From contig NZ_QAXS01000008.1 in assembly GCF_003053565.1 (NCBI RefSeq), forward strand, positions 1-64,000: a stretch of DNA of 64,000 nt, read 5' to 3'. Each line of letters starts with the position of its first letter. The first letter of the stretch is position 1. The translations under genes were made by a program, and so were the position numbers. The DNA comes from Halanaerobium saccharolyticum (GTDB lineage: Bacteria; Bacillota; Halanaerobiia; Halanaerobiales; Halanaerobiaceae). A model generated the notes under the pieces. The model saw only the letters and a list, made by a program, of their open reading frames with translations. It was not told where the DNA came from and did no database searches. Positions 1-17,567 of this stretch are shown here, piece by piece.

Positions 1-59
1 AAAGGATAAGGTAGTGACTGAATATTCTGTAGATAGTATATGTTCTCAATAACTTAAAT

Positions 60-317
60 TTGACAATGCTTAAATATTTTTATGCAATGCTAGTGGGTTT
101 AGATAAACTGCTCAAAAGCAGGAATCAGAATCTGGAGAATAATTCAGCCGCAATTTCAAAAGAAGAGCTCTGGCAGCAGTTAGAAGAAATTCCTGCAGCC
201 TGTATTGGCCCGGTAACGGCTGCTAAGGCGGAAGAATACGGACTTAATGTTAAAATAACGGCAGCTGAATATACAATAGAAGGTCTATTTGCTGCAATTT
301 CAGCATATTATTCCTAA
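60..317 (+). pseudogene. hemD: Uroporphyrinogen-III synthase C-terminal remnant
   Basis: The last 40 or so residues (ACIGPVTAAKAEEYGL, then [11 protein letters not shown]) match the conserved C-terminal end of uroporphyrinogen-III synthase, which closes the tetrapyrrole ring. A normal enzyme has about 250 residues. Here only 85 can be read in this frame, and in-frame stops lie just upstream (12-14, 15-17, 30-32). A HemD-like stretch (KVVTEYSV) occurs in another frame at 8-31 and ends at a TAA at 50-52. The gene therefore looks broken by a deletion or frameshift, although the rest lies outside the window and a sequencing error is possible. It sits directly before hemB, the usual place for hemD in a siroheme operon. 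Confidence 0.55.
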
Positions 318-334
318 AGGGAGGTTTATATAAA

Positions 335-1306
335 ATGGATTTAAATATAAGGCCGAGACGACTGCGCAGTTCTCAAGGTATTAGAGATTTAGTCAGAGAA
401 ACAAATTTAACTGCCGCAGATTTTGTTAAACCACTATTTGTAGTAAATGGTCAAAATATTAGGGACGAGATTCCTTCAATGCCGGCCAACTATCATTTAT
501 CGCTGGATAATTTGGAAGCGGAAGTTCAGAGGCTTGTCGAGCTGGGGATTAAAGCAGTAATACTATTTGGACTACCCGAATATAAGGATGCAGAGGGTTC
601 AAGTGCCTGGCAGCAGGATGGAATAGTTCAGCAGGCAGTTAAAGGACTAAAAAAGAAGTTTCCAGAGCTGCTGGTTATTACTGACCTCTGCCTATGTCAG
701 TATACAGATCACGGCCACTGCGGCATTTTAGAAGCGGGAAAAATTAAAAATGATGCAACTTTAGAAAGACTGGCAAAAGTTGCTCTCTCCCATGCTGAAG
801 CAGGAGCTGATCTAATAGCTCCATCTGATATGATGGATGGAAGGGTGGCTAAGATTCGTCAGGTTTTAGATCAAAATGGCTTTAAGGAAGTTGGAATTAT
901 GGCTTATTCAGCTAAATACCATTCTGCCTTTTATGGACCTTTTCGTGATGCTGCTCATTCGGCACCGGGAGAGGGTGACCGCAGCAGCTATCAGATGGAC
1001 GCTGCAAATTCTGATGAGGCTTTACGAGAGATGGAGCTCGATATTGCAGAAGGAGCAGATATTATTATGGTTAAACCTGCTTTATCCTACCTGGATATTA
1101 TTAAGCAGGCCAGTGATAATTTTAAGCTGCCGGTTGCTGCCTATAATGTAAGTGGTGAATATGCGATGGTAAAAGCGGCAGCAGAAAAGGGCTGGCTGGA
1201 TGAAAAAAGTGTGGCCCTGGAAATTTTGACTTCGATCAAAAGAGCGGGGGCAGATATAATAATTACCTACTGGGCGGACAGTGCTGCTGGCTGGCTTAAG
1301 GAGTAA
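335..1306 (+). CDS. hemB: Delta-aminolevulinic acid dehydratase (porphobilinogen synthase)
   Basis: This enzyme condenses two molecules of 5-aminolevulinate to porphobilinogen in the cytoplasm. At 323 aa it has the normal family length. The zinc-type cysteine cluster [13 protein letters not shown] lies near residues 117-129. The two active-site lysines are visible in [16 protein letters not shown] (near 193) and MVKPALSY (near 246). The ATG has a strong GGGAGG ribosome site. It follows the hemD remnant by 17 bases and precedes hemL, forming a tetrapyrrole operon. With a siroheme sulfite reductase just downstream, siroheme is the likely main product. Assignment is secure. Confidence 0.97.
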
Positions 1307-1395
1307 TTTAAGATGAGCAGCAGCTAATTTTATTTGGCAGGTTAAATATAAATATTTTATTTAAGTTTAAGAATATCAGCTAGGGAGTGATTTTA

Positions 1396-2697
1396 ATGGA
1401 TAAGGAAAGAAAAAAATCAGCTAAAGCTTTTAAAAAAGCAGAGAGGGTAATCCCCGGTGGGGTCAACAGTCCTGCCAGAGCTTTTTCTGCAGTTGAGATG
1501 GATCCTATTTTTATTGAAAGAGGAGAGGGAGCCTATCTCTACGACATTGACGGCAACAAATATTTAGATTATGTTAACTCCTGGGGACCGATGATTCTGG
1601 GCTATAATCCACCCCAGGTGCAGAAAAAATTAAAAAAACAACTTAAAAAAGGGACAAGTTTTGGGGCGCCAACTGAAGTTGAGACAGAAATTGCAGAGTT
1701 GATAGCAGATTTTTACCCGGCTGTTGATAAGGTGCGGATGGTTAATTCAGGTACAGAAGCCACGATGAGTGCGATCAGGCTGGCTCGTGGTTATACAGGT
1801 AGAGACAAAATAGTCAAACTGGAAGGCTGCTATCACGGGCATGGAGACAGTCTTTTAGTTGATGCAGGTTCTGGCGTGGCAACTTTAGGGATCAAAGGCA
1901 GTCCTGGAGTTACCGAAAGTATTGCTAAAGAAACTATAGTAGTACCCTATAATGATCGAGAAGCTGCAGAAAAAGTTTTTGCAGAATATGGATCTGAGAT
2001 TGCAGCAGTTATCCTGGAACCGGTGACCGGAAATATGGGAGTTATCGCTCCTGAGCCAGGTTATCTGGAATATCTGCGTCAGATCACCCGTAAAAATGAA
2101 GCTCTTTTGATTTTTGATGAGGTAATGACAGGTTTTCGCCTTGCCCGCGGCGGAGCACAGGAACTCTATGGCATTGAGGCCGATTTAAGTACTTTTGGTA
2201 AAATTATCGGTGGGGGAATGCCAGTTGGTGCTTATGCCGGCAGGAAAGAAATCATGGACTATGTTTCTCCTGTTGGTCCGGTTTATCAGGCTGGAACCCT
2301 GTCCGGAAATCCAATGGCCATGCAGGCAGGGCTTGCTACTTTAAAAGAATTAAAAAATAAGAAGGTATATTCAGAGCTGGAAGCAAAAGGAGAAAAATTG
2401 GAAGCAGGATTTAAAAAGAATATCGAAGAACTTGGTTTTCCTGCCTACTTTAATCGGGTTGGGTCTATGTTCACTCTGTTTTTTAGAGCCAAAAAAGTTA
2501 AAAATTATCAGGATGTTAAAAGCTGCAGGCAAAAATTATTTGCGGCCTATTTTAAGGCAATGATTGAACAGGGTATTTATTTACCACCCTCTCAATATGA
2601 GGCCAATTTTATTTCACTGGCTTTAAGTGAAGAGGATCTGGAGAAAACAATATCTGCCAATTACCAGGCTCTGAAAAAAATAAAGGCTGAATTATAA
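1396..2697 (+). CDS. hemL: Glutamate-1-semialdehyde 2,1-aminomutase
   Basis: PLP enzyme that moves the amino group of glutamate-1-semialdehyde to give 5-aminolevulinate, the substrate of the preceding hemB. The N-terminal [13 protein letters not shown], the [14 protein letters not shown] segment and the PLP lysine in [14 protein letters not shown] (about residue 269) are all typical, and the length (433 aa) is normal. I chose the ATG at 1396 because GGGAG lies 8 bases before it. An in-frame GTG at 1387 overlaps that ribosome site. It shows that the cell uses the C5 (glutamate) route. The stop overlaps the next start (TAATG), so the two genes are translationally coupled. Confidence 0.96.
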
Positions 2698-3125
2698 TGG
2701 GAAAAGCATTAGTAATAGTCTGTCACGGTAGTAAGAGCAAAAAAAGTAGTCAGGAAATAAAGTCATTACTTGCTAAAATAAAAAAGATTAATCAAAATAT
2801 AGCCAGGGAAAAGGGAGAAGTACCAGATGACAGGACAAATAAAGAAAATTATTTTGAGATTGCAGCGGCTTTCCTGGAATTTGCCGATCCTCAGTTAGAA
2901 AAAACTGTACAGAGTCTCTATCAAAATGGGATTAAAAACCTCGATATTTTGCCTCTCTTTATCTTTGCAGGCTATCATCTCTGCCAGGACTTACCACAGC
3001 GGCTGGAAAAATTGGAGGTAGAACTTACGGGTTTAAATTATAAAATTCTTAATCATCCTGCCCACTATGATGACTTTGCCTCATATATTTTCGACAAGGC
3101 TTTGAGCGAGATTTCTAAAACTTAA
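2697..3125 (+). CDS. CbiX/SirB-type sirohydrochlorin chelatase (small form)
   Basis: At 142 aa this has the size of single-domain CbiX/SirB-type chelatases, which insert iron (or cobalt) into sirohydrochlorin. The N-terminal VIVCHGSKSKKS and the second histidine motif LFIFAGYHLCQDLP match the two metal-handling segments of the family. The start overlaps the hemL stop by one base. Located between tetrapyrrole genes and the siroheme-dependent sulfite reductase, it most likely makes siroheme, but cobalt chelation for cobalamin cannot be excluded from sequence. A low-complexity lysine-rich stretch near residues 15-45 is less conserved. Confidence 0.8.
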   Translation: MGKALVIVCHGSKSKKSSQEIKSLLAKIKKINQNIAREKGEVPDDRTNKENYFEIAAAFLEFADPQLEKTVQSLYQNGIKNLDILPLFIFAGYHLCQDLPQRLEKLEVELTGLNYKILNHPAHYDDFASYIFDKALSEISKT

Positions 3126-3133
3126 AATTAAAA

Positions 3134-3149
3134 TGTAAATTATTTTACA
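3134..3149. promoter_or_regulatory. Inverted repeat TGTAAA-N4-TTTACA, candidate operator
   Basis: A perfect 6-bp-arm inverted repeat sits 7 bases before the -35 box of the first sulfite-reductase promoter. Spacing and position (centred about 50 bp before the likely transcript start) fit a CRP/FNR-class activator site. The protein is unknown, and the AT-rich setting makes chance possible. Confidence 0.35.
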
Positions 3150-3156
3150 AATATTA

Positions 3157-3185
3157 TTGACATCCGGGAACTAATAAGGTATCAT
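3157..3185 (+). promoter_or_regulatory. Sigma-A type promoter P1 of the sulfite reductase operon
   Basis: TTGACA (3157-3162), a 17-base spacer and TATCAT (3180-3185). This is a near-consensus housekeeping promoter upstream of the sulfite reductase and is the best candidate for driving the sir-metY-aprAB operon. Confidence 0.7.
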
Positions 3186-3219
3186 AACTTTAAGCTAAAA
3201 CCGAACAAATCTATAGGGA

Positions 3220-3247
3220 TTGACATATAAATTAAAATAGGTATATG
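3220..3247 (+). promoter_or_regulatory. Possible second promoter P2 of the sulfite reductase operon
   Basis: TTGACA (3220-3225), a 16-base spacer and TATATG (3242-3247). The -10 box lies only about 14 bases before the coding start, so a transcript from here would have a very short leader and might carry little of the ribosome site. It is weaker than P1. Confidence 0.4.
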
Positions 3248-3260
3248 AGAGGTGAATCTG

Positions 3261-5600
3261 TTGACTGAAAATATTTTTAAAATTCCAGAGTCGATCAAAG
3301 AAGATACGGAAAAATTCAAGAGTAGTTTAGAGCAGTTTCTGGCAGGTGATCTGTCGGCAGAAAGATTTAAGGGACATCGAGTACCAATGGGAGTTTACGG
3401 TCAGCGCGGTGATTTCAAAAAAGAAAAATATATGGTTAGAGTCAGGGTTCCGGGCGGATTTTTAACAGTGGACCAGCTGCAGCTTCTGGCTGAGTTGAGT
3501 AAAGAGTATGGAGTTGGTTATTTACATTTTACAACCCGGCAGGATATTCAGATCCATCAGGTCGAAATAGAGAAGAGTGCAGAAATTTTAGATAAACTTT
3601 TAGCAACTGGACTAAGCCCCCGTGGTGGTGGCGGGAACACAGTCCGTAACATTATGAATTCTCCTGCAGCAGGGGTTGATCCAGAGGGCAGTTTTGATAC
3701 AACCCCTCACTGCCTGGCCCTGAGTGAATATTTACTATCATCCCGTTCATCCTTTAATCTTCCCCGAAAATACAAGATTGCCTTTTCGGTAAGCAACAAA
3801 GATAAAGGACTGGCAACAGTCAATGATCTTGGTTTTATTGCAGCATTCAAAAATGGGAAACGCGGTTTTAAGGTTTATGCAGCTGGTGGGATGGGAAATA
3901 AGCCGGCAGTGGCTTTTAAATTAATAGACTTTGTAACCGAAGATAAAATTTTTGCAGTTGCTGAAGCAATTAAAAGATTATTTGACCGCTATGGAGACCG
4001 AAGCAACAGACATCAGGCGCGTCTTCGTTTTGTTCGCCGTCGTTTTGGCGAGGATAAATTTAGAGAATTATTTTTTGATTACTATAAAGAAGTATTAGAA
4101 GCAGCAGAAAAGGGAGAGCTGGAATTTATTGATCTTAATTATTACCGGCAAAAAATAGAACCTGTAAAAGATTCTCCTATCCTGGAATTAAATCCCCTTA
4201 AAGGAGATATGAATTATCAGGAAGTGATAGATTTAATTGAGCTCAGCAAAAAATATCACTTAAACTTAAGGACTACCAATCAGCAGGGGATTCTGCTTAG
4301 AGGAATTGATACTGCTCAGCTGAAGAAAATAAAATCAGAGCTGAGGAATATCAATTATAGCTGGCTTGATTCCCGAGCACTTTCTGCAGTAGCCTGTAAA
4401 GGAGCATCTACCTGCAGACTTGGTCTCTGTCATTCCCCCAATCTGGCAGAAGCAATTAGAGAAGAGCTTTTAAATCTGGATGAGGATATTAGAAAACTTT
4501 TACCCCAGATTTATATCAGCGGCTGCCCTAACTCCTGTGGCCAGCATCATATAGGAAAAATCGCCTTTGAAGGTAAAGCTAAACGAGAAAACGGCAGACT
4601 GATTCCCTATTATACCCTGCTGCTGGGAGCTGAGGTGAGTGAAGCTAATACCATTTATGCCAGGAGAACAGTTGACCTTCCGGCCAGAAGAATTCCCTCT
4701 TTTTTAGCTCGGACTGCAGAAACCCTGGCCGAGCAAAAAGATTACAGTTTGGAAGCTTTCAATCAGTATCTAAGCAGTGGTGGTCTGGAAATAATAACAG
4801 CTCTTGCTGAGGAGTATACTGAGATTCCTGCCTATAGCTCTGAACCTGATTTTTATAAAGACTGGGGTCAGGCTGAAGACTTTTCTCTGGCTGGTAGAGG
4901 TCCAGGAGAATGCGGCACCGGAGTAATTGAAATTGTAAAACTTGATCTCAACCGGGCAGAAAAAGCATATCAGAAAGGAATTGCTAATAAAGATAGTGAC
5001 AGCTTATATCAGGCCATAATTGCTGCAGCTCGCTCATTATTAATTGTCCGTGGAGTTGATACTGAAAAAGATAGAATAATCATTAAAGAATTTAAAGAAA
5101 AATTTATTGATTCTAACTGGGCTGCCGCTTCCGCAGAGAGTCTTCTGGATTCTGCTCTTGATTATCGCCTGGGTGACCTAAAAGAACTTTCAACTCAGAG
5201 TGAGCAGATACTGGCCCTGATTGAAAGAGTAAAGGCACTTTTTAATTCTCTAAATTCCAGTCTGGAATTTACAATTTCCAAAGCAGCTCAAGCTGAAGCT
5301 GCTGAAAAAGAAAGCAGAGGAAAGGAAAAACAGGCAGCTGGAAATAGTGAAAATGAAGATAATAACTTACAGGAAGAATTTAGACTTAAAGACTTAAGAG
5401 GAGTTAAATGTCCTATTAATTTTGTGAAAGCAAAACTATTTTTGGAGCCGCTGCCGTCAGGTGAAATAGTAGATTTTTATCTTGATTCAGGAGAGCCAAT
5501 AAAAAATGTTCCCGGGAGTTTAGAAAATGAAGACCATCAGATACTAAAAAAAGAAAAGCAGGAAGAAGGCTACTACTTACTGCGGGTAAAGAAAGCCTAG
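3261..5600 (+). CDS. Siroheme sulfite reductase with C-terminal TusA-like domain
   Basis: Ferredoxin-type nitrite/sulfite reductase that reduces sulfite to sulfide using siroheme and a 4Fe-4S cluster. The two ferredoxin-like half domains (about 55-125 and 310-370) flank siroheme-binding regions. The cluster cysteines are visible in ACKGASTCRLGLC (about 378) and SGCPNSCGQHH (about 421). The protein is far longer (779 aa) than a plain enzyme of about 550 aa. After residue 555 comes an all-helical segment resembling HEPN-type domains (low confidence), an acidic linker, and from about 708 a TusA/SirA-like sulfur-handling domain (DLRGVKCPINF, with the Cys-Pro motif). I chose TTG at 3261 because GAGAGGTG lies 6 bases upstream; an in-frame GTG at 3252 overlaps that site. 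First gene of an operon with metY and aprAB. Confidence 0.9.
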   Translation: MTENIFKIPESIKEDTEKFKSSLEQFLAGDLSAERFKGHRVPMGVYGQRGDFKKEKYMVRVRVPGGFLTVDQLQLLAELSKEYGVGYLHFTTRQDIQIHQVEIEKSAEILDKLLATGLSPRGGGGNTVRNIMNSPAAGVDPEGSFDTTPHCLALSEYLLSSRSSFNLPRKYKIAFSVSNKDKGLATVNDLGFIAAFKNGKRGFKVYAAGGMGNKPAVAFKLIDFVTEDKIFAVAEAIKRLFDRYGDRSNRHQARLRFVRRRFGEDKFRELFFDYYKEVLEAAEKGELEFIDLNYYRQKIEPVKDSPILELNPLKGDMNYQEVIDLIELSKKYHLNLRTTNQQGILLRGIDTAQLKKIKSELRNINYSWLDSRALSAVACKGASTCRLGLCHSPNLAEAIREELLNLDEDIRKLLPQIYISGCPNSCGQHHIGKIAFEGKAKRENGRLIPYYTLLLGAEVSEANTIYARRTVDLPARRIPSFLARTAETLAEQKDYSLEAFNQYLSSGGLEIITALAEEYTEIPAYSSEPDFYKDWGQAEDFSLAGRGPGECGTGVIEIVKLDLNRAEKAYQKGIANKDSDSLYQAIIAAARSLLIVRGVDTEKDRIIIKEFKEKFIDSNWAAASAESLLDSALDYRLGDLKELSTQSEQILALIERVKALFNSLNSSLEFTISKAAQAEAAEKESRGKEKQAAGNSENEDNNLQEEFRLKDLRGVKCPINFVKAKLFLEPLPSGEIVDFYLDSGEPIKNVPGSLENEDHQILKKEKQEEGYYLLRVKKA

Positions 5601-5620
5601 TATTTTAAAGGAGTGAGAAG

Positions 5621-6859
5621 ATGAGTAGAGAATATCAATTTGAAACCAGATTATTATTATCTAATAACAGAAATGAATATGGAGCTGTAAACAGAGCAAT
5701 TTATCAGACAAATGCCTTCGAATATGAAACAGCAGAAGAACTGGAAAAAGTATTTGCAGGTCAGGCTCAGGGCTATAATTACACTCGGGTAGGAAACCCC
5801 AGCAATAATGAATTTGAAGAAAAGATGAAAGAGCTGGAAAATGGAATTGGAGCTTTAAGCACAGCTTCCGGGATGGCTGCTATTGCCGCGGCTGTCTTAG
5901 CACTAGTTGAAGCCGGTGATGAGATTGTGGCCGGGAATAGTCTTTTTGGTGGGACCTACAGTTTTTTTAAGGATAATCTTAAAGACTGGGGTGTTAAATG
6001 TAATTTTGTAGAGACAACTGAGTTAGAGCAGTATCAGCAGGCTATTAACCCCAAAACAAAACTAATTTATATCGAAACGGTGGGAAATCCAAAGCTGGAT
6101 ATTCCAAACATTAAAAAAATAGCAGAAATTGCTCACCAGCATGGATTACCCCTGATCCTGGACAATACTCTAATGACCCCTTATCTTTTTCAGGCTAAGG
6201 AGTATGGAGTTGATGTAGTAGTTCATTCAACTTCAAAATTTATCAATGGCAGCTCCAATTCTATCGGAGGAGCTGTTGTTGATACAGGCAATTTTAATTG
6301 GGCTGAAAGTGACAATCCGCTGCTGGCAGATTATTTAAAATTTGGTCCCTTTGCCTATCTGGCCAGACTGCGTCAGGATATATTTCGTAATCTGGGTCCC
6401 TGTGCAAGTCCTTTTAATTCCTATCTTAATAATCTGGGGGTTGAAACTCTGGCGCTGCGGATGGAAAAACACTGTTCTAATGCATTAGAACTGGCCCGAT
6501 TTTTTGATTCTAATTCGGCAATCAAAGGGGTGAATTATCCGGGGCTTAAGTCAAATCCATACCATCAGCTGGCAGCCGAGCAGTTTAATAATCATTTTGG
6601 TGGGCTTTTGACTTTTGAAGTCGGGAGTAAAAAAGAGGCTTTTAAAGTAATTAATGAGCTGAAGATTGCCAAAAATCTTTCCAATTTGGGTGGCTTGAGA
6701 ACTCTTGTAATTCATCCGGCTTCAACTATCTATCACAAACTTTCAGAATCAGAAAAAAGAGTTCTTGGAGTCACTCCGGCTTTGATTAGAGTTTCGGTAG
6801 GAATTGAAAGTGCCAGAGATATTATCGAAGACTTCAGTCAGGCACTGGAAAAGCTGTAA
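5621..6859 (+). CDS. metY: O-acetylhomoserine sulfhydrylase (Cys/Met metabolism PLP enzyme)
   Basis: PLP enzyme of the Cys/Met metabolism family that joins O-acetylhomoserine with sulfide, or with a protein thiocarboxylate in some bacteria, to make homocysteine. At 412 aa it has MetY-like length. YNYTRVGNPSNNEFE near residue 50 and the PLP lysine in VVVHSTSKFINGSS (about 205) are characteristic. It follows the sulfite reductase by 20 bases with its own ribosome site (AAAGGAGTGAG), which places sulfide production and sulfide fixation in one transcript. Close relatives include cystathionine gamma-synthase; the operon context and the long FNSYLNNLGVETLALR segment favour the sulfhydrylase. Confidence 0.9.
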   Translation: MSREYQFETRLLLSNNRNEYGAVNRAIYQTNAFEYETAEELEKVFAGQAQGYNYTRVGNPSNNEFEEKMKELENGIGALSTASGMAAIAAAVLALVEAGDEIVAGNSLFGGTYSFFKDNLKDWGVKCNFVETTELEQYQQAINPKTKLIYIETVGNPKLDIPNIKKIAEIAHQHGLPLILDNTLMTPYLFQAKEYGVDVVVHSTSKFINGSSNSIGGAVVDTGNFNWAESDNPLLADYLKFGPFAYLARLRQDIFRNLGPCASPFNSYLNNLGVETLALRMEKHCSNALELARFFDSNSAIKGVNYPGLKSNPYHQLAAEQFNNHFGGLLTFEVGSKKEAFKVINELKIAKNLSNLGGLRTLVIHPASTIYHKLSESEKRVLGVTPALIRVSVGIESARDIIEDFSQALEKL

Positions 6860-6869
6860 GGAGGGAAAA

Positions 6870-8594
6870 ATGAAGAAGGAAGTTTTAAAAACAGACCTGC
6901 TTATAGTTGGAGGTGGAGCAGCCGGCTCATATGCTGCAGTTACTGCCCGTCGGGAAGATCCAGAACTGGATATTACAGTAATAGAAAAGGCCCATATTGA
7001 CCGCAGCGGCTGTCTGGCAGCAGGTATAAATGCCATCAACGCCTATCTGAATCCGGGTGAGACTCCAGGGTCCTATCTGCACTATGTTAAAGATGATTCT
7101 TATGGGCTGGTTCGGGATGACCTGGTCTATTCTATCGGCCAGGGCCTAAACAGGGTGACCGAAGAAGTTGAAAGCTGGGGACTTGAAATTTTAAAAGATG
7201 AGGATGGTAATTATTTAAAAAGAAGTTCCCGCAGTATCAAAATTAATGGTGAAAATTTTAAACCTATTTTGGCCAGAAAAGTTAGAAAAAGTAGAATTAG
7301 AATTTTAAATAAAACAGCTGCTCTAAACTATATTGTCCAGGATAATAGAGTCTGCGGAGTTTTTGCTCTAAATTTAAAGGAAGACAAATTTTATACAATT
7401 AAGGCTAAAGTGGTAATCTGTACCACAGGCGGTGCGGCAGGGATTTATAAGCCAAATAACCGGGGGCAGGCCAAACATAAGATGTGGTATCCTCCCTTTA
7501 ATACAGGTGCCGGTTATGCAATGGGAATTAGGGCAGGTGCTGAGATGACAACTTTTGAGATGCGTTTTGTGGCATTACGAGTAAAAGATGTGATCGCACC
7601 TACCGGCAGCTTTGCCTTTGCCGGGGGCAGACAGATCAACTCTCAGGGAGAGGAATATCTAAAAAAATTCAGCAGAATCACCACTTCTTTGAGGCTTTTC
7701 GCTACAGTTGAAGAAAATAGAAAGGGGAGAGGCCCCTGTTATCTTGATCTCGGTCATTTAGATCTGGATAAAAAGGAAAAATTAGCCCGCTCATTACTGG
7801 GCATGTGTCCGGGAATGGTCTTAAAGTGGGAAGATCAAGATTTAGACTTATCGGAACTTAAGGTAGAGATAGAAGGAACAGAACCATATATTGTTGGTGG
7901 GCACTGTCAGTCAGGTTATTGGATTGATTCAAATCGCCGTACAACACTCCCGGGCCTTTATGCAGCCGGCGATGTTGCCGGAGGTGCCCCAAAAAAATAT
8001 GTCACCGGAGCATTTGTTGAAGGAGAAATAGCAGCCAGATCAGCAGTTGAGGAATTAAAAAAGCTGCCGCAAAATTTTTTAGAATTAAATATAACCGAGT
8101 TAATTGCTAATGAATATAATCGAGTTTCCAGTTTTCTTAATAGAGAAGAAGGACTGGAAGCTGAGGTGCTGGAAGATAAGCTGCAGCAGATTATGGAAAT
8201 TTATGCTGGTGGTAGAAGCCAGTATTATAGACTGGAAGCTGAAAAACTGCTTATGGCGAGAAGAAAATTGAATGAATTGAAGGCTGAAACTGTGAATTTA
8301 AAAGCCGATACTTCCCGCGAGCTGCTGGCTGTTCAGGAAGTGATTGAAAGAATTGAAGTTGCCGAAGTATTAGTTGAGCATCTGCTTTACCGTAAGGAGA
8401 CTCGCTGGCCCGGATATCAGAGTCGGGTTGATTTTCCGGATCGAAAAAAAGAATGGCGGAAATTTGTTAATTCCAGACTAAGAACTGAAAATAATGAGCT
8501 TGAAATTATCGAAAGAAAATATAAAAGTTTAGGGGATTATGCGGCATTCAAAGACTATGATCAAGCTGATTTTTATCTTGAATATAATCTCTAA
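6870..8594 (+). CDS. aprA: Adenylylsulfate (APS) reductase alpha-like flavoprotein
   Basis: FAD-dependent member of the fumarate reductase/AprA family; the expected reaction is APS + 2 electrons -> sulfite + AMP. The FAD-binding VGGGAAGSYAA is at the N terminus. DRSGCLAAGINAINAYL followed by YVKDDSYGLVRDDLVY closely resembles the AprA substrate/FAD region, and GLYAAGDVAGGAPKKYVTGA closes the FAD site. At 574 aa it is a little shorter than dissimilatory AprA (about 650). ATG 6870 was chosen for its GGAGGG site. A ferredoxin resembling AprB follows, and no PAPS reductase is present in the window, so this pair is the likely sulfite-forming step. Fumarate reductase or aspartate oxidase is less likely. 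Confidence 0.82.
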   Translation: MKKEVLKTDLLIVGGGAAGSYAAVTARREDPELDITVIEKAHIDRSGCLAAGINAINAYLNPGETPGSYLHYVKDDSYGLVRDDLVYSIGQGLNRVTEEVESWGLEILKDEDGNYLKRSSRSIKINGENFKPILARKVRKSRIRILNKTAALNYIVQDNRVCGVFALNLKEDKFYTIKAKVVICTTGGAAGIYKPNNRGQAKHKMWYPPFNTGAGYAMGIRAGAEMTTFEMRFVALRVKDVIAPTGSFAFAGGRQINSQGEEYLKKFSRITTSLRLFATVEENRKGRGPCYLDLGHLDLDKKEKLARSLLGMCPGMVLKWEDQDLDLSELKVEIEGTEPYIVGGHCQSGYWIDSNRRTTLPGLYAAGDVAGGAPKKYVTGAFVEGEIAARSAVEELKKLPQNFLELNITELIANEYNRVSSFLNREEGLEAEVLEDKLQQIMEIYAGGRSQYYRLEAEKLLMARRKLNELKAETVNLKADTSRELLAVQEVIERIEVAEVLVEHLLYRKETRWPGYQSRVDFPDRKKEWRKFVNSRLRTENNELEIIERKYKSLGDYAAFKDYDQADFYLEYNL

Positions 8595-8677
8595 GCAATT
8601 AATAAAGAAGCATATGACCTAAAGAATTATATGATTTATAAATGAGCCTTAATTTCAAAAAGGAGAGTGAAGTGTTA

Positions 8678-8983
8678 ATGGCAGTTAAAATTGATAAAAA
8701 CATCTGTGATGGCTGTCCTGATTACAATCAGGGTCGCTGTGAGAGAATCTGTCCCGGTAGTTTGATTTCGAAACAGGGAAAAAAAGCAAAAATTATAAGA
8801 CCCGAAGAATGCTGGGATTGTGCAGCCTGTGTTAAAGCCTGTCCCCGCAATGCCATTAGTCTTTACCTGCCCGAGGAAGTTGGAGGCCGGGGAACAGAGT
8901 TAAAAGTTCAGCAGAAAAATAAGCGTTCAATCTGGATTTTTGACAGAGAAGATGGAAGCAGAAAAGTATACAAAACTGGTTAG
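8678..8983 (+). CDS. aprB: APS reductase beta-like ferredoxin, two 4Fe-4S clusters
   Basis: A small iron-sulfur protein whose two Cys clusters (CDGCPDYNQGRCERICP and CWDCAACVKACP) have the unusual first-motif spacing of AprB. It also keeps the AprB-like tail after the second cluster, including a tryptophan-containing strand (IWIFDREDGS). It should pass electrons to the flavoprotein encoded just upstream. ATG 8678 is chosen because it starts the conserved region; an in-frame GTG at 8672 is better spaced from AGGAG and would add two residues. It lacks the long C-terminal clamp of some dissimilatory AprB proteins. Confidence 0.82.
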   Translation: MAVKIDKNICDGCPDYNQGRCERICPGSLISKQGKKAKIIRPEECWDCAACVKACPRNAISLYLPEEVGGRGTELKVQQKNKRSIWIFDREDGSRKVYKTG

Positions 8984-9011
8984 TGCCAGGTTAAAGAGAA
9001 ATATTTCACTT

Positions 9012-9047
9012 GTACCAGGTACAAAAAGGCCTTTTTGTACCTGGTAC
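9012..9047. repeat. Perfect 36-bp palindrome, copy 1 of an intergenic repeat family
   Basis: Eighteen bases (GTACCAGGTACAAAAAGG) followed at once by their exact reverse complement. Related palindromes are at 60616-60649 and 63526-63557. The 21 bases ending just before this copy (8988-9010) include GGTTAAAG and end in TTTCAC, the same spacing as the flank found after the other two copies. There is no U-tract, so it is not a standard terminator, although its transcript would fold strongly between aprB and the E1 gene. Confidence 0.85.
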
Positions 9048-9084
9048 CTATAAAATGGTACCGATAATTAAAGGAGGACAATAA

Positions 9085-10107
9085 ATGAGCATAAATATTA
9101 CTGTTAATGGAGAAGAAAAAGAGATTAGAGAGGGGTTGAATCTGGCTGAGCTGCTGGCTGAGCTGGAGGTCGATCCTGAGGTGACTGTTGTCAAATTAAA
9201 TGAGGCCATGGTTCCCCAGGGAGAACTGGCAGAAAGAGATCTTGAGTCAGGTGACAATATTGAATACATATTTTTTATGGGAGGAGGGGCTTTTGATTTA
9301 ACTGAAGAAGAAATTGAGCGCTACAGCCGCCATATTATTCTAAAGGACCTGGGAGGTACAGGCCAGCAGAAGATTAAAGAAGCTAAAGTACTGGTAGTTG
9401 GAGCAGGAGGACTTGGTTCTCCTGTTGCCTTTTATCTGGCAGCTGCCGGTGTTGGAACTTTAGGTCTGGTTGACAGCGACCATGTAGATCTGACAAATCT
9501 CCAGCGGCAGATTCTTCATACAACTGAGGATACAGGCCGGCCCAAGGTCGAATCGGCCCGCGAAAAACTGGAAGCTATGAATCCAAATGTTGAGGTAAAA
9601 ATATATAATCAGTATCTAAATAAGGATAATGTGGAGTCGATTATTGCCGATTATGACATTATAGTGGATGGTGTCGATAATTTTCCCACCCGCTATCTTT
9701 TAAATGATGCCTGTGTAATGGCCGAAAAACCGCTGGTTGAGGCCGGGATTCTGCAGTTTTCAGGTCAGCTGACAACTATTATGCCGGGAGAGGGACCCTG
9801 CTACCGCTGTATTTTTGCTGAACCGCCAAAAGAAGGTGCGATCCCGAGCTGTCAGGAAGCTGGAGTTCTGGGAGCAATTGCCGGTACAATTGGAACCCTG
9901 CAGGCAACAGAAGTTTTAAAGCTGATTACCGGGATTGGCAGACCACTTGTCGGCAGAATGTTAGTTTATGATGCAAAGGATCTTTCCTTTAGAGAAGTTG
10001 AGGTCAAAAGAAGTAAAAAGTGTGATGTCTGTGGTGAAGAGCCGGTAATAACAGAGCTGATGGAATATGAATTAAGCTGTAATCTGCACCAGCAGGCAGA
10101 GGCATAA
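9085..10107 (+). CDS. Sulfur-carrier (ThiS/MoaD-like) fused to E1-like adenylyltransferase (MoeB/ThiF)
   Basis: Residues 1-68 form a beta-grasp sulfur carrier (INITVNGEEKEI...DNIEYIFFMGGG). The diglycine motif that is normally the C terminus is here internal, at about 66-68. From about 75 the chain is an E1-like enzyme: SRHIILKDLGG, the nucleotide-binding GAGGLGSP (about 107), the DHVDLTNLQRQ motif, PSCQEAGVLG, and zinc cysteines CYRC (about 239) and CDVCG (about 313). Such enzymes adenylate the carrier's C-terminal glycine so that it can take up sulfur as a thiocarboxylate. A JAMM peptidase follows 21 bases later and could release the carrier. The setting next to metY argues for homocysteine or cysteine synthesis rather than thiamine or molybdopterin. 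Confidence 0.9.
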   Translation: MSINITVNGEEKEIREGLNLAELLAELEVDPEVTVVKLNEAMVPQGELAERDLESGDNIEYIFFMGGGAFDLTEEEIERYSRHIILKDLGGTGQQKIKEAKVLVVGAGGLGSPVAFYLAAAGVGTLGLVDSDHVDLTNLQRQILHTTEDTGRPKVESAREKLEAMNPNVEVKIYNQYLNKDNVESIIADYDIIVDGVDNFPTRYLLNDACVMAEKPLVEAGILQFSGQLTTIMPGEGPCYRCIFAEPPKEGAIPSCQEAGVLGAIAGTIGTLQATEVLKLITGIGRPLVGRMLVYDAKDLSFREVEVKRSKKCDVCGEEPVITELMEYELSCNLHQQAEA

Positions 10108-10128
10108 GCACTGCAAAGGAGGAAGTCA

Positions 10129-10551
10129 ATGTCAAAATTAATTCTCAAAAAAGAAGATTATCAAAAGATTTTAGAGTATTCGCGGCAGCATAAACCGGTA
10201 GAAGCCTGTGGAATTATAGCGGGGATTATTGATCAGGATGCAGGGAAATATTTTTCAACAAAGGTTTATTTAATGGAAAACACCAAAAACAGTCCCGAAC
10301 ATTATCTGATGGAGCCGGAAGAGCAATTTGATGTTTTTAAAGATATGAGAGAAAATGAGCTCGATTTGATTTCAGTATTTCATTCTCATCCTCATTCACC
10401 AGCTCGACCTTCTCAGGAAGATATTGAAATGGCTAATTATAAAGAAGCTATCTATTTAATAATTTCTCTGCAGCAGGAACAGGAAGATTTTAGAGCCTAT
10501 TTTATTCAGGATGAGCAGCCTCAGGAAATTGAAATTGAAGTTGAAATTTAA
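10129..10551 (+). CDS. JAMM/MPN+ zinc metallopeptidase
   Basis: 140-residue protein of the Mov34/JAMM family, zinc isopeptidase-like enzymes. The metal motif is complete: glutamate in VEACGIIAG (about 25) and HSHPHSPARPSQED (from about 85), giving the H-x-H-x7-S-x2-D pattern. Bacterial members of this size trim residues after the diglycine of sulfur carrier proteins, as in CysO/Mec of mycobacteria or the HcyS/HcyD pair of Wolinella. Its partner is almost certainly the ThiS-like domain encoded directly upstream. The gene has AAGGAGG before ATG and ends the operon; no clear terminator was seen after it. Confidence 0.88.
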   Translation: MSKLILKKEDYQKILEYSRQHKPVEACGIIAGIIDQDAGKYFSTKVYLMENTKNSPEHYLMEPEEQFDVFKDMRENELDLISVFHSHPHSPARPSQEDIEMANYKEAIYLIISLQQEQEDFRAYFIQDEQPQEIEIEVEI

Positions 10552-10659
10552 ATTATATTATACGAAGTGGAGCAGTCCTGAAATATTAATTGGCGAAACT
10601 CTTTTAACATGACTCTTTTTCAACCGTCAGCCTTCCTTAAAAATCAGACCAAATATTAT

Positions 10660-10689
10660 TTGCCAACCAGGATCAATATGCGGTATAGT
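10660..10689 (+). promoter_or_regulatory. Probable promoter of the first coiled-coil gene
   Basis: TTGCCA (10660-10665), an 18-base spacer and TATAGT (10684-10689), 40 bases before the ATG at 10730. The spacer is one base longer than ideal. Confidence 0.5.
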
Positions 10690-10729
10690 AAATGCACATG
10701 GAGATTAGGAAGAAGGGCAGGTGAATCAG

Positions 10730-11197
10730 ATGTCAGAAGCTAAAATTTTAGAGATGCTTGTTAGCCGTTTTGACCAGCTTGATAAGAGTTTGGATAATAA
10801 ATTTGAACAAATCGATAAGCGCTTTGACCAGATAGACAAACGACTTGATGATCACGATAAGCGATTCGATCAGATAGATAAACGGCTTGATGATCATGAT
10901 AAGCGTTTCGATCAGGTTGATCAACGATTTAACAGTATTGAAACGAAATTAGCTGAACATGATCAGCGCTTTGATAAGCTGGATAATGTTCTTGCAGAAC
11001 AGGATATTAAATTCTTTAATATCAATAAAACATTAAAAAAACACAGTAATCAACTTGATGAGCTGAATTATACAATTAATAAGATTCACGATCAAACTGC
11101 CCGCCTGAGCCTGGAACAGGGCAAACTGGCAATGAAAATTGATCAGCTGAAAAACTCGAGTACAGAAAAGGATGAGAAAAAGCTCAATAGTATCTAA
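10730..11197 (+). CDS. Heptad-repeat coiled-coil protein, function unknown
   Basis: 155 aa, predicted almost wholly alpha-helical and cytoplasmic, with no signal peptide or membrane segment. Residues 12-85 carry 7- and 14-residue repeats of the type FDQIDKRLDDHDKR, giving a regular coiled coil rich in Asp, Lys and Arg; two 14-residue units are almost identical at DNA level (10831-10916). The C-terminal half (FNINKTLKKHSNQLDEL...) is a less regular helix. ATG 10730 has AGGTGA 5 bases before it. A second protein of the same kind lies beyond cysC, so the two bracket the cysDNC genes. I do not recognise a function; oligomeric scaffold proteins look like this. Confidence 0.7.
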   Translation: MSEAKILEMLVSRFDQLDKSLDNKFEQIDKRFDQIDKRLDDHDKRFDQIDKRLDDHDKRFDQVDQRFNSIETKLAEHDQRFDKLDNVLAEQDIKFFNINKTLKKHSNQLDELNYTINKIHDQTARLSLEQGKLAMKIDQLKNSSTEKDEKKLNSI

Positions 11198-11240
11198 AAA
11201 TTATAAAATGATAATAAGGTAATTTTAAACTTAAATATAA

Positions 11241-11276
11241 GGAGCAGTTTCCTTTTTTCAAGGGGCTGCTCTTTTT
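11241..11276 (+). terminator. Rho-independent terminator after the coiled-coil gene
   Basis: GAGCAG pairs with CTGCTC (inner CCTT/AAGG also pair) and is followed by TTTTT. It separates the coiled-coil gene from cysD. Confidence 0.75.
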
Positions 11277-11443
11277 AGATAAGTCTTGTTTTTAGGGTCA
11301 ACTTTTGATAAAATCTAATTAATTGAAATTAAGTCGTTAAAGCTCAAGAATTCGATATTATTCGACATTTGAGTGATTATCATATCGGGTATTACTAATA
11401 ATTTCCAGGTACCCGGTACTTAGATAGACAAGGAGGGTCAATT

Positions 11444-12325
11444 TTGGATCATTTAGACAAATTAGAAAGCAGAAGTATTCATATTTTAAGAGAAGCGTAC
11501 AGTGAATTTAATAATATCTGTATGCTGTGGTCAGTTGGTAAGGACTCAACAGTTATGCTCTGGCTGGCCAGGAAGGCGTTTTTTGGACATGTTCCAATTC
11601 CACTGGTACATATTGATACCAGCTACATGATTCCCGAGATGATTGAACACCGGGATAAGCTGGCAAAAGAGTGGAATCTGGATATGATTTACGGCCAGGA
11701 TGAAGAAACACTGGCAGCAGGAGATACCTTTCCTAATGGGAAAGCAACTCACTTAGAATGCTGCGGCCGCTTAAAAACAGCTGCCCTTAAAAATACCTTA
11801 AATGGTAACTGGCGCCGCTACAGATACAATCATAATAAGGACGAATACGAGCTGGACAGCAATCGTGAACCCTACACAGGGGTAATTGTTGGTGCCAGAG
11901 CAGATGAGGAAGGTTCCCGTTCCAAAGAGAGATATTTTTCTCCCCGGGACCGCAACAATGACTGGGATATTGGCGATCAGCCGCCAGAATTCTGGGATCA
12001 GTACAAGACAGATTTTGCTCCCGGTACCCATGTTAGAATTCATCCCCTTTTAGACTGGACTGAGCTTGATGTCTGGGAATATATTCAGCGCGAAAAGATA
12101 CCAATGGTCTCTCTATATTTTGACCAGGGTGAAGGTAAACGCTATCGCTCTTTAGGCTGTGCTCCCTGTACTGAGCCGGTAGAATCTACAGCCTCCACAG
12201 TTGATGAGGTAGTAGAAGAGCTTAAAACAGGTAAATTTGCCAATATCGCTGAGCGAGACGGCAGAGCCCAGGATAAAGAAGATGGTGGCGGTTTAGAAGA
12301 ACTGCGCAAAGACGGATATATGTAG
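11444..12325 (+). CDS. cysD: Sulfate adenylyltransferase subunit 2 (CysD)
   Basis: Catalytic subunit of ATP sulfurylase, which makes APS from sulfate and ATP. The PP-loop [17 protein letters not shown] is at about residue 30. [27 protein letters not shown] and the C-terminal [20 protein letters not shown] segment match CysD along the full 293 aa. The TTG start is supported by AGGAGG 7 bases upstream. It is followed 6 bases later by its GTPase partner cysN and then by cysC. No clear sigma-A promoter was found in 11277-11443, although transcription should start there because a terminator precedes it. Confidence 0.95.
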
Positions 12326-12331
12326 GAGGTA

Positions 12332-14146
12332 GTGATGAATAATAAAACAGGAGAACAGGACTTAAATTTAGTAATTGCAGGCCATGTTGACCACGGTAAA
12401 AGTACAATCATTGGTAGAATGCTGGCAGATACAGATTCTCTGCCGGACGGCAAATTAGAACAGGTAAAGGAGACCTGCCGCAAAAATTCCAAGCCTTTTG
12501 AATATGCTTTTTTACTTGATGCACTAAAAGATGAGCAGGCACAGGGAATTACTATTGATTCGGCAAGGGTCTTTTTTCAGACAGATATGAGGCAGTATAT
12601 AATTTTAGATGCCCCGGGTCATATTGAATTTCTAAAAAATATGGTAACCGGAGCCGCCAGAGCAGAAGCTGCTTTACTGGTAATCGATGCATCCGAAGGA
12701 GTTAAAGAAAACTCCCGCCGCCACGGCTATATGCTCTCGATGCTCGGCATCAAACAGATTGCAGTAGTGGTAAATAAGATGGATTTGGTTGATTATGATG
12801 AGAATACATATAATCAGATTGTAGAAGAATATACAGACTTTCTGGCTGAAATTGGACTGGAAGCAGAGCGCTTTATCCCGGTCAGCGGAATGCTTGGAGA
12901 TAATGTAGCTGACAGATCAGAAAACATGCCCTGGTTTGAAGGTAAAACTGTTTTAGAGCAGCTGGACAGCTTCGAAAATGCTGCCCTGCCTCACAATAAA
13001 CCCTACAGAATGCCGGTTCAGGATGTCTATAAATTTACCAAAGGTGGAGATGACCGCCGGATAGTTGCTGGAACAGTGGCAGCTGGTGAATTAAATGTCG
13101 GTGATGAAGTTGTTTTCTATCCTTCCGGTAAAAAGAGTACTGTTAAGACAATAGAAGGTTTTAAAGAAGATAAACAGCATAAGGTTAAGGTCGGTAAAGC
13201 AACCGGTTTTACCCTGGATGAGCAGATATATATTACCCGCGGGGAATTAGCTTCCCGAGCTGATGAAGCTGAGCCTAAAGTTTCAGCAAGAATCAAGGCC
13301 AATCTTTTCTGGCTGGCCCGCCAGGATTTAGTTAAGGATAAGGTCTATCATCTAAAACTTGGAACAACTAAAGTTAAGGCCCGTCTGGAAAAAATCAACA
13401 GAGTAATTGATGCTTCCAACTTAAATCAGGATGAAGCCAAAGAAAAGATTGAGCGCCACGATGTGGCTGAGGTTGTCTTTAAACTTGATCGGGCGATGGC
13501 TTTTGATCTGGCCGGAGAGATTGAAGAGACCAGCCGCTTTGTAGTTGTCGATGACTTTGAGATTGCCGGTGGTGGAATTATCTCTGAAGCTATGGAAGAT
13601 GAGCAGAGCTGGGTTCGAGAAAAGGTAATGCGCCGTAACTACAACTGGGAACAGTCCTTAATCAGCCGTGAAGATAGAGCAGAAAAGTATAATCAGAAAT
13701 CAACTCTAATCTTGATTACTGGAGAAGAGGATGTTGGTAAAAAGCCAACTGCTAAAGCCCTGGAGAAGAGATTGTTTAATGACGGTAAGGTAGTCTACTT
13801 CCTCGGTATTGGTAACCTCCTCTATGGTGTTGATGCTGATATTAAAAATGGAAATAATGATAACAATAAAGAAGAACATCTGCGCCGTCTGGCTGAGGTT
13901 TCTCACTTAATGCTCGATGCAGGAGCTATTTTAGTTGTAACAGCTGTTGAGCTGAGCCAGTCCGATTTAGAGCTGATCAAAACAACAGTTAACCCACAGC
14001 AGATCGAGATAGTCTGGCTCGGAGATAGAGTGACAACTGATTTAGAGTTTGACCTCCATATTCCGGAGTTTACTTCAGAAGCTGAAGTTTCAGCTCAGAT
14101 TAAAGGCCTGTTACAGGACAGGGGGATTATCTTTAGACCATGGTAG
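12332..14146 (+). CDS. cysN: Sulfate adenylyltransferase GTPase subunit (CysN) with decayed APS-kinase-like domain
   Basis: EF-Tu-like GTPase that drives APS formation by CysD. GTP motifs are clear: GHVDHGKST (about 17), DAPGHIEF, and NKMDLVDYD, followed by two beta-barrel domains to about residue 430. The extra C-terminal 145 residues (about 458-604) align in layout with APS kinase, but the P-loop has become [10 protein letters not shown] and the DGDNLR motif is GIGNLLYG, so catalysis is unlikely. An intact, separate cysC overlaps the end of this gene by 7 bases. The tail may be a structural leftover of a CysNC bifunctional enzyme or may bind nucleotide for regulation. Confidence 0.93.
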
Positions 14147-14715
14147 ATAACATTAAGTGGCATTTAGGTGAAATTGATAAGGCTGCCCGGGAGGAACTTT
14201 TAGGGCAGCAGGGAATGGTTCTCTGGTTTACCGGACTTTCGGGCTCCGGTAAATCTACCATTGCTGTTGAGGTAGAAAAGAAGCTTTACCGAAGAGCTAA
14301 AGCCTCCTACCGCCTTGATGGTGACAACCTGCGCTTTGGTTTAAATAAGGATCTCGGTTTTACAGCTGAGGACAGAGAGGAGAACATCCGCCGGATCGGT
14401 GAGGTGGCTGCTTTATTTGCTGATGCCGGCTTAATTACCCTGGCTTCTTTTATTTCTCCCTACCGCGCCGGCAGAGAAGCTGCCCGTCAGGCTGCAGGAG
14501 CAGAAAATTTTAAAGAAATTTATGTTAAAGCCAGTGTGGAGGCCTGTGCTGAACGAGATCCCAAAGGACTCTACGAAAAGGCCAAAAAAGGTGAGATCGA
14601 AAACTTCACCGGGATATCTGCTCCTTATGAGGAGCCGGAAAATCCTGATCTGGTAGTGGATACTGAAAAATTGAGCCTTGAAGAATCAGTTAAGCTGGTG
14701 CTGGGACTGGTTTAA
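14140..14715 (+). CDS. cysC: Adenylylsulfate kinase (APS kinase)
   Basis: Phosphorylates APS to PAPS. At 191 aa it has normal single-domain length. The intact P-loop GLSGSGKST is near residue 32, followed by [46 protein letters not shown] and [13 protein letters not shown], all family hallmarks. It overlaps cysN by 7 bases. No PAPS reductase (CysH) gene is in the window; sulfite seems to come from APS through the AprAB-type enzyme, so PAPS may serve another use or a distant cysH. The same odd combination of cysC with apr-type genes is known from clostridia. Confidence 0.95.
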
Positions 14716-14940
14716 AACGTGCAACTACCGTTTACCGAACCAATTTTTACCAAAATTAATCCTGGCTGGATTGCAATTTATTTTTTTATTATTAAACTAT
14801 AAAAAAATTTCAAGCCTTATTTATCTTTCCATTTCCTTGCCAATTAATCTTCAAAGTAATATAATAAACTTAGTAAATAATAAATTGATATAGATTTTAA
14901 AAGTTTATGGAGAACAGGTAGGAAGGAGAGTGAAAATGAG

Positions 14941-15423
14941 GTGGCTGAAGATAAAACTTTAAATTTAATCCTTTCTAAACTTGAAGATCTGGATACTAAA
15001 GTTGACAGAATGGATTCTAAGTTTGATAAATTGGATACTAAAGTGGATAAGTTATCTGATCGATTTGATAAATTAGATTCTAAAGTTAGTAAATTAGATT
15101 CTAAAGTTAGTAAATTAGATTCTAAAGTTAGTAAATTAGATTCTAAAGTTGCTGCTCTAGATTCCCGAGTTGATAGCCTGGAAGTTAACCTTTCAAACTT
15201 CAGGGGGGAATTCAATAATTTTAGAAGTGAGACCAATGAAACTCTGTCCCGGATAGAGAAGAGAGTTAATGCTACATTTGATCAGGTTGGAGGGCTTAGC
15301 GAATACAGAACTAAAACTGAAGCTCAACTCGACAACATTGAATCTGACATGTCCTATTATGCCCGTAAACAGATTGAAAACGAAAAAGAAATATATAAAT
15401 TAGAACGAAAAATGGCAAAATAG
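14941..15423 (+). CDS. Heptad-repeat coiled-coil protein, paralogue-like, function unknown
   Basis: 160 aa, all-helical and soluble. Residues 5-85 are an almost perfect run of heptads (KLDSKVS repeated), encoded by 21-bp tandem DNA repeats. The second half (FRGEFNNFRSETNETLSRIEKR...ARKQIENEKEIYKLERK) is a mixed coiled coil. Its style matches the protein encoded before cysD, and the two bracket cysDNC. The start is puzzling: the long frame begins with GTG at 14941, but the ATG best placed after AAGGAGAG (14936) is in another frame and stops after 8 codons. A strong terminator follows. Function not recognised. Confidence 0.65.
   Translation: MAEDKTLNLILSKLEDLDTKVDRMDSKFDKLDTKVDKLSDRFDKLDSKVSKLDSKVSKLDSKVSKLDSKVAALDSRVDSLEVNLSNFRGEFNNFRSETNETLSRIEKRVNATFDQVGGLSEYRTKTEAQLDNIESDMSYYARKQIENEKEIYKLERKMAK
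15070..15153 (+). repeat. Tandem 21-bp repeat, four units
   Basis: Units begin at 15070, 15091, 15112 and 15133. The first three are identical, and the fourth differs only in its last three bases. Each unit encodes one KLDSKVS heptad, so copy-number changes would lengthen or shorten the coiled coil without shifting the frame. Confidence 0.95.
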
Positions 15424-15432
15424 CAGCTTTTA

Positions 15433-15467
15433 AGCCTCTCCTGCAGGCAAAAACGGGAGAGGTTTTT
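15433..15467 (+). terminator. Rho-independent terminator
   Basis: CCTCTCC (15435-15441) pairs with GGAGAGG (15456-15462), followed by TTTTT. It ends the second coiled-coil gene and separates it from the permease gene. Confidence 0.88.
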
Positions 15468-15515
15468 CGGTCTTTTAGAAAGCTGAATTAATCTGGGAAA
15501 AAGGAGGGATTCAAG

Positions 15516-17441: not shown

Positions 17442-17486
17442 AAAATAGCTAATCAACTGTTTCCCGCTGACTATTTTAATAAAATT

Positions 17487-17536
17487 AAACCTCCTTTCAA
17501 ATTGAGTGGTTAAGCTCAGTTTAAAGGAGGTTTTTT
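17487..17536. terminator. Strong terminator between convergent genes
   Basis: CCTCCTTT (17490-17497) pairs with AAAGGAGG (17523-17530), followed on the + strand by TTTTTT. AT-rich flanks could let it also stop transcripts of the minus-strand Wzz gene ending at 17568. Confidence 0.88.
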
Positions 17537-17567
17537 AGTTAAGCTAAAAGTTTAGATTTTATATCTA

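Follow-up and report, generated by a model that had tools for sequence, protein, structure and literature searches.

Genes and features at the locus

The stretch of DNA that was analysed (64,000 nucleotides from Halanaerobium saccharolyticum, referred to below as the window) carries the following features, positions being those of the window.

335-2697: hemB and hemL, upstream
2697-3125, + strand: CbiX-like sirohydrochlorin chelatase, probable siroheme supply
3261-5600, + strand: SiR-HEPN-TusA fusion protein, 779 aa; TTG start, with an alternative in-frame GTG at 3252
3261-4805, + strand: siroheme/4Fe-4S sulfite reductase core, residues 1 to ~515; cluster Cys 379, 385, 422 and 426, SiR-type Lys172
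4893-4913, + strand: GRGPGEC motif (residues 545-551), in which the core of the reductase ends; its last residue is the invariant Cys551
4914-5255, + strand: HEPN-fold helical domain, ~residues 552-665, RX4-6H RNase motif absent (profile and predicted fold)
5271-5381, + strand: linker rich in Glu and Lys (residues 671-707), predicted to be mostly disordered
5382-5594, + strand: TusA/SirA domain, residues 708-778, pathway signature CPINF (Pfam, predicted fold, tree)
5409-5411, + strand: codon of Cys717, presumed persulfide cysteine of TusA (translation; conservation)
5621-6859, + strand: MetY-type O-acetylhomoserine sulfhydrylase
6867-8594, + strand: AprA-like flavoprotein (adenylyl-sulfate reductase alpha; NF005331, 1e-242)
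8642-8983, + strand: AprB-like ferredoxin
9085-10107, + strand: ThiS-ThiF (HcyS-HcyF type) fusion, junction MGGG-AFDLT
10129-10551, + strand: JAB/JAMM peptidase (HcyD type)
10721-11197: small protein with heptad-like repeats (FDQIDKRLDDHDKR)
11444-14715, + strand: CysD, CysN and CysC, for the activation of sulfate (names given from the sequence; related clusters have homologues in this order)
14941-15423: small protein with heptad-like repeats (KLDSKVSKLDSKV)

The fusion gene is an open frame without a stop. Its TTG codon at 3261 is directly preceded by a good ribosome site (gagaggtg), and a promoter-like sequence (TTGACA-17-TATCAT, 11/12), one of the region's two best matches, lies at 3157-3185; no Rfam elements were found in positions 1-18000. 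The organism's own genome (3.2 Mb, 98.7% complete) contains a single copy of the fusion, its only other TusA match being a protein of 204 aa, and close named relatives, Halanaerobium congolense and H. saccharolyticum, show 73–74% identity.

The CbiX-like chelatase, HemB and HemL genes upstream are consistent with siroheme supply. The SiR, MetY, ThiS-like carrier, E1 and JAB are encoded together (3261-10551), and this set is conserved elsewhere. The ThiS-E1 fusion is in frame, with the junction FMGGG-AFDLTEEE, and the ThiF-type E1 is without a rhodanese domain according to Pfam. In every ThiS examined MGGG is followed by extra residues, separate ThiS proteins of the cluster ending in MGGG plus one to several residues; in the ThiS-E1 fusion, the JAB peptidase would thus need to free the E1 to expose a Gly-Gly end. 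This assimilatory cluster has an AprA/AprB-like pair (6867-8983) and not a thioredoxin-type PAPS/APS reductase, and the pair recurs in related clusters. The two heptad-repeat proteins, which flank the CysD/CysNC genes, gave mostly weak coiled-coil matches in Pfam.

Domain structure of the fused protein

A sulfite reductase carrying a helical and a TusA-like domain had been described for this gene in an earlier, sequence-only reading, and this arrangement was confirmed by the Pfam detection of two NIR_SIR halves, characteristic of a two-lobed siroheme reductase, and of TusA, together with a HEPN fold in the helical segment. The tail, previously put at about 225 residues beyond the reductase, extends for about 265 residues after the core. 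The four siroheme/4Fe-4S ligands (C379, C385, C422, and C426) are invariant among 18 fusions, and Lys172 of the active-site motif NLPRKYK is invariant in 30 aligned proteins, the spinach nitrite reductase having Asn at this position of the alignment. The residue at position 172 is one that we take to distinguish sulfite from nitrite reductases and, judged by the cluster cysteines and Lys172, the fusion core is a siroheme reductase of the sulfite and not of the nitrite type. Foldseek groups the fusion model with NirA, plant SiR and NiR, and E. coli SiR.

For the helical segment, the HEPN profile match of the window protein alone was weak (0.018–0.065, under the cut-off); the same profile matched 10 of 16 relatives, with a best value of 3.5e-6, and the family profile recovers genuine stand-alone HEPN proteins, partners of MNT nucleotidyltransferases, at ~1e-9. 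The AlphaFold2 model, built on an alignment of 30 proteins, had a mean pLDDT of 87 and places the five main tail helices at ~552-663 of the protein (model numbers are lower by four). When predicted alone, the tail matched the solved HEPN structure 2hsb over 110 residues with a Z-score of 13.0, a value of ~13 being one that helical bundles may reach by chance. The profile search and the fold together identify the segment as HEPN. HEPN domains are often RNases. Among the 18 fusions, neither the RX4-6H ribonuclease motif nor any His within the HEPN domain was conserved; as the motif is absent, a reading of this domain as an RNase was dropped, and we read it as structural, a probable non-catalytic spacer. 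A phage search with the HEPN region gave no matches.

The linker that follows has a pLDDT of <50 over most of its length, and among the 18 fusions its length ranges over 15–48 residues and its identity over 0–32%. Over the same alignment the HEPN and TusA domains are conserved equally to the SiR core while the linker drifts; between H. congolense and the window protein, the identity is 76% for SiR, 75% for HEPN, 86% for TusA, and 27% for the linker.

The TusA domain and its phylogenetic position

The Pfam TusA family (PF01206) matches residues 711-778 with an E-value of 1.4e-13 (50.9 bits vs. a cut-off of 28.6), and it matches 14 of 14 tails. The predicted fold has the order E-H-E-H-E-E, with the Cys-Pro ahead of the first helix and C717-P718 invariant, and the predicted tail resembles the solved TusA/SirA structures 3hz7, 3lvj and 1dcj with Z-scores of 11.7, 11.6, and 11.3. 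Structure prediction thus bears out the TusA fold that had been suggested for the tail (Z ~12 to solved TusA/SirA), and the cysteine of its VKCPINF motif, which had been placed at about residue 708, is residue 717.

The residue C717 and the CPx[NT]F core around it are invariant in 18/18 fusions and are retained in the separate TusA proteins of the pathway. The pathway members read CP[IMLV][NT]F, whereas nearly all other TusA proteins read CPxP. In a tree of 61 TusA domains, all pathway members formed one clade (98/89) with the other TusA proteins outside, and the fused domains formed a single clade (96/87) within it; the alignment contained few columns and the inner forks are weak. The simplest reading of these sequences is that the SiR-TusA fusion arose once. 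C717 is the presumed carrier of sulfur as a persulfide. An orphan TusA of 86 aa that resembles the fused domains (56% to that of the window) was observed beside a truncated AprA in another genome (G293; locus L046, 8731-10052), in which no full SiR and no JAB were found and which looks to contain a decayed cluster.

Distribution of the fusion and its gene linkage

In our phylum sample, the fusion is present in 19 genomes from 10 bacterial families, and it is patchy within the order (7 of 38 genomes). One of these fusions (G120) is cut by contig ends, and the conservation alignment comprised 18 fusions. The contig scan of genomes found three Halanaerobium relatives; phyla beyond the window's own were sampled via plasmids, and the searches aimed at other classes covered three genomes each. 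The best plasmid SiRs of other phyla carried HEPN but no TusA, or stopped at the GEC motif. That the fusion is a product of chance or of annotation is ruled out by the occurrence in 19 genomes and by a tail that is as conserved as the core. No described SiR-TusA or SiR-HEPN fusion was found among the open-access papers searched.

The genes for ThiS, ThiF, and JAB flank the fusion wherever the locus is of sufficient length, with the exception of one genome (G036), and MetY, AprAB, and CysDNC are often also nearby. JAB is present in 18 of the 19 fusion genomes vs. none of 11 relatives without the fusion, although these genomes are related and the counts are not independent. In the near-complete genome G036 the fusion is present without JAB, and no ThiS/ThiF was seen nearby; it stands alone (L037, 8939-11287) amid transporter genes and unrelated ones, and there the domain may serve another acceptor.

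In 26 other loci, chosen mostly for the proximity of TusA and SiR and thus showing recurrence but not true frequency, the pathway TusA is a separate gene that adjoins or lies near a small SiR, often overlapping the end of the SiR gene, and ThiF is found in nearly all of them. This small SiR is non-orthologous, ~290 aa in length, with added ferredoxin-type cysteines. Several of these loci have the order ThiS-ThiF-JAB-SiR-TusA-MetY-AprAB-CysDN, the same set as in the window. The linkage of TusA with two different reductases, as a neighbor and as a fusion, indicates that TusA probably works with sulfite reduction here, and we regard it as the strongest evidence for such a role in this pathway. 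The connection to the downstream thiocarboxylate system, which the sequence-only reading had offered as an example, is now strongly supported by the gene context and by the pathway-specific TusA clade.

A second invariant cysteine at the end of the reductase core

The 18 fusions share exactly six invariant cysteines, viz. the four cluster ligands, C717, and C551, a second invariant tail cysteine that was overlooked in the sequence-only reading. The AlphaFold2 model has low confidence at the loop of C551. This cysteine is also present in SiRs without TusA, and hence it is not tied to that domain. Two SiRs from Persicobacteraceae have GVGECAG or EVGECAG, then HEPN, and then stop, and a plasmid SiR from Thermus oshimai (L154, 7983-9707) without HEPN or TusA stops at GRGECAV, two residues past the cysteine; this end may be a mobile C-terminal cysteine arm. 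Sulfite reductases that bear this motif occur in Bacillota, Bacteroidota, and Thermus; the other Bacillota SiRs examined lacked it. No assigned role for the C-terminal GEC cysteine of SiRs was found in the literature. Located where the core ends, C551 is a candidate relay or trap for sulfur.

Proposed function and alternative explanations

The domain order, conservation, fold predictions, gene linkage, and TusA clade described above are drawn from the sequences, and from them we infer every chemical step of the following scheme. In established chemistry, a ThiF-type E1 adenylates a ThiS-type carrier, and a sulfur nucleophile then forms the thiocarboxylate. The reading that we favor, with a probability slightly better than even, is that the fusion is the assimilatory SiR of a protein-thiocarboxylate pathway for homocysteine, with its TusA carrier in cis and persulfide transfer via C717. 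Sulfate would be activated by CysDNC and reduced to sulfite by the AprAB-like proteins, and the siroheme would reduce sulfite; the tethered TusA would accept S0-level sulfur, which Cys717 would hold as a persulfide and which Cys551 might relay. Its disordered tether, behind the non-catalytic HEPN spacer, would let TusA swing out and pass the sulfur to the ThiS/HcyS domain, whose C-terminus would have been adenylated, on the E1 (ThiF/HcyF) that lacks rhodanese. JAB would trim HcyS, and MetY would form homocysteine from HcyS-thiocarboxylate and O-acetylhomoserine. The sequence-only reading had suggested that newly made sulfide could be bound as a persulfide and handed on with no free sulfide released. 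Since the conversion of sulfide (S2-) to a persulfide needs an oxidant, capture of an S0-level species from the siroheme before full reduction is likelier, and S0-level sulfur is the likelier cargo unless the TusA domain does something else. In a single study that contradicts the textbook view, assimilatory SiRs were reported to make S0 first and sulfide secondarily (Cao et al., 2026; PMC13188885), and a persulfide route is chemically plausible if zero-valent sulfur is released in this way. The question of free sulfide vs. protein-bound S0 in sulfate assimilation has thereby lately been reopened (PMC13188885). The operon E1 proteins were earlier noted to be without rhodanese, with SirA always present and proposed to substitute (Iyer et al., 2006; PMC1779556). 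The pathway and a carrier role for SirA/TusA have therefore already been proposed, and what is new is the fused form and the invariant C551. The more specific suggestion that C551 and the tethered C717 intercept S0 in cis and channel the persulfide to the ubiquitin-like carrier, so that free sulfide would not be obligatory, is fairly unlikely.

An explanation that does not call for a sulfur-carrying cysteine is that the SiR makes free bisulfide, with TusA acting as a docking or local-concentration device whose cysteine is dispensable for transfer. In established ThiS/HcyS chemistry, bisulfide alone is able to attack the acyl-adenylate. Krishnamoorthy and Begley reportedly described the Wolinella pathway in 2011 with Sir supplying its sulfur as bisulfide, and a carrier may thus not be required; the long and variable linker is what is expected of a tether. 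The G036 genome, where the fusion occurs apart from JAB, ThiS, and ThiF, counts against the favored reading. However, pure docking needs neither C717 nor the CPx[NT]F core, whose invariance in the fusions and retention in the separate proteins were noted above, and we consider this explanation possible but not probable. C551 and C717, as the only invariant non-cluster cysteines, could instead form a pair that removes S0 as a trisulfide or persulfide in the manner of DsrC, with the reduction stopping at four electrons. The placement of the GEC motif, at the close of the core in Thermus and ahead of HEPN in Persicobacteraceae, agrees with this, as do the known transfer of an intermediate from DsrAB to DsrC (PMC10229431) and the reported S0 release by assimilatory SiRs (PMC13188885). 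But C551 occurs in SiRs without TusA, so that C717 is not always needed, its loop is of low confidence, and homology to DsrC was not seen, a Pfam scan to E 1 having found no DsrC profile in the whole protein or the tail; such a pair appears improbable.

A further reading of the HEPN domain is that the fusion is an enzyme acting on RNA or in regulation, whose TusA would serve the thiolation of tRNA. Many HEPN domains are indeed RNases, and E. coli TusA serves tRNA 2-thiouridine synthesis (PMC6225789), but the lack of a conserved RX4-6H motif or His in this domain and a gene neighborhood of sulfate assimilation make this very improbable. A natural fusion of reductase and carrier beside the genes for its acceptor, as favored here, makes the proposed route testable by single cysteine mutants.

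Comparison with known systems

The cluster resembles that of Wolinella succinogenes (HcyS, HcyF, HcyD, MetY, Sir) in that genes for a ThiS-like protein, an E1-like protein, JAB, MetY, SiR, and sulfate activation are clustered, and in a ThiS whose GGG is followed by residues that would have to be trimmed. It differs from it in that its large SiR carries TusA and HEPN as fused domains, in that its ThiS and E1 form one protein, and in the carrier proposed here in place of the bisulfide reported for the Wolinella scheme. The gene set is the same as in the type 4e operons (ThiS/MoaD, JAB, E1, SirA, sulfite reductase, OAH sulfhydrylase) of Iyer et al. (2006; PMC1779556), in which SirA is separate, the fusion reported there being ThiS-SiR in actinobacteria. 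With E. coli TusA and the IscS-TusA complex (1dcj, 3lvj) the domain shares its fold and the Cys-Pro motif, but it has CPx[NT]F, belongs to its own clade, and its predicted donor is a siroheme enzyme and not a cysteine desulfurase. As in DsrC with DsrAB, a protein cysteine would take sulfur from a siroheme sulfite reductase, although this is an analogy only: the proteins have no sequence relation, and here the carrier is in cis to an assimilatory enzyme. In the TsuA(YeeE)-TsuB(YeeD) fusion (8k1r), a TusA-like domain is likewise joined to its own sulfur supplier, which in that case is a thiosulfate transporter.
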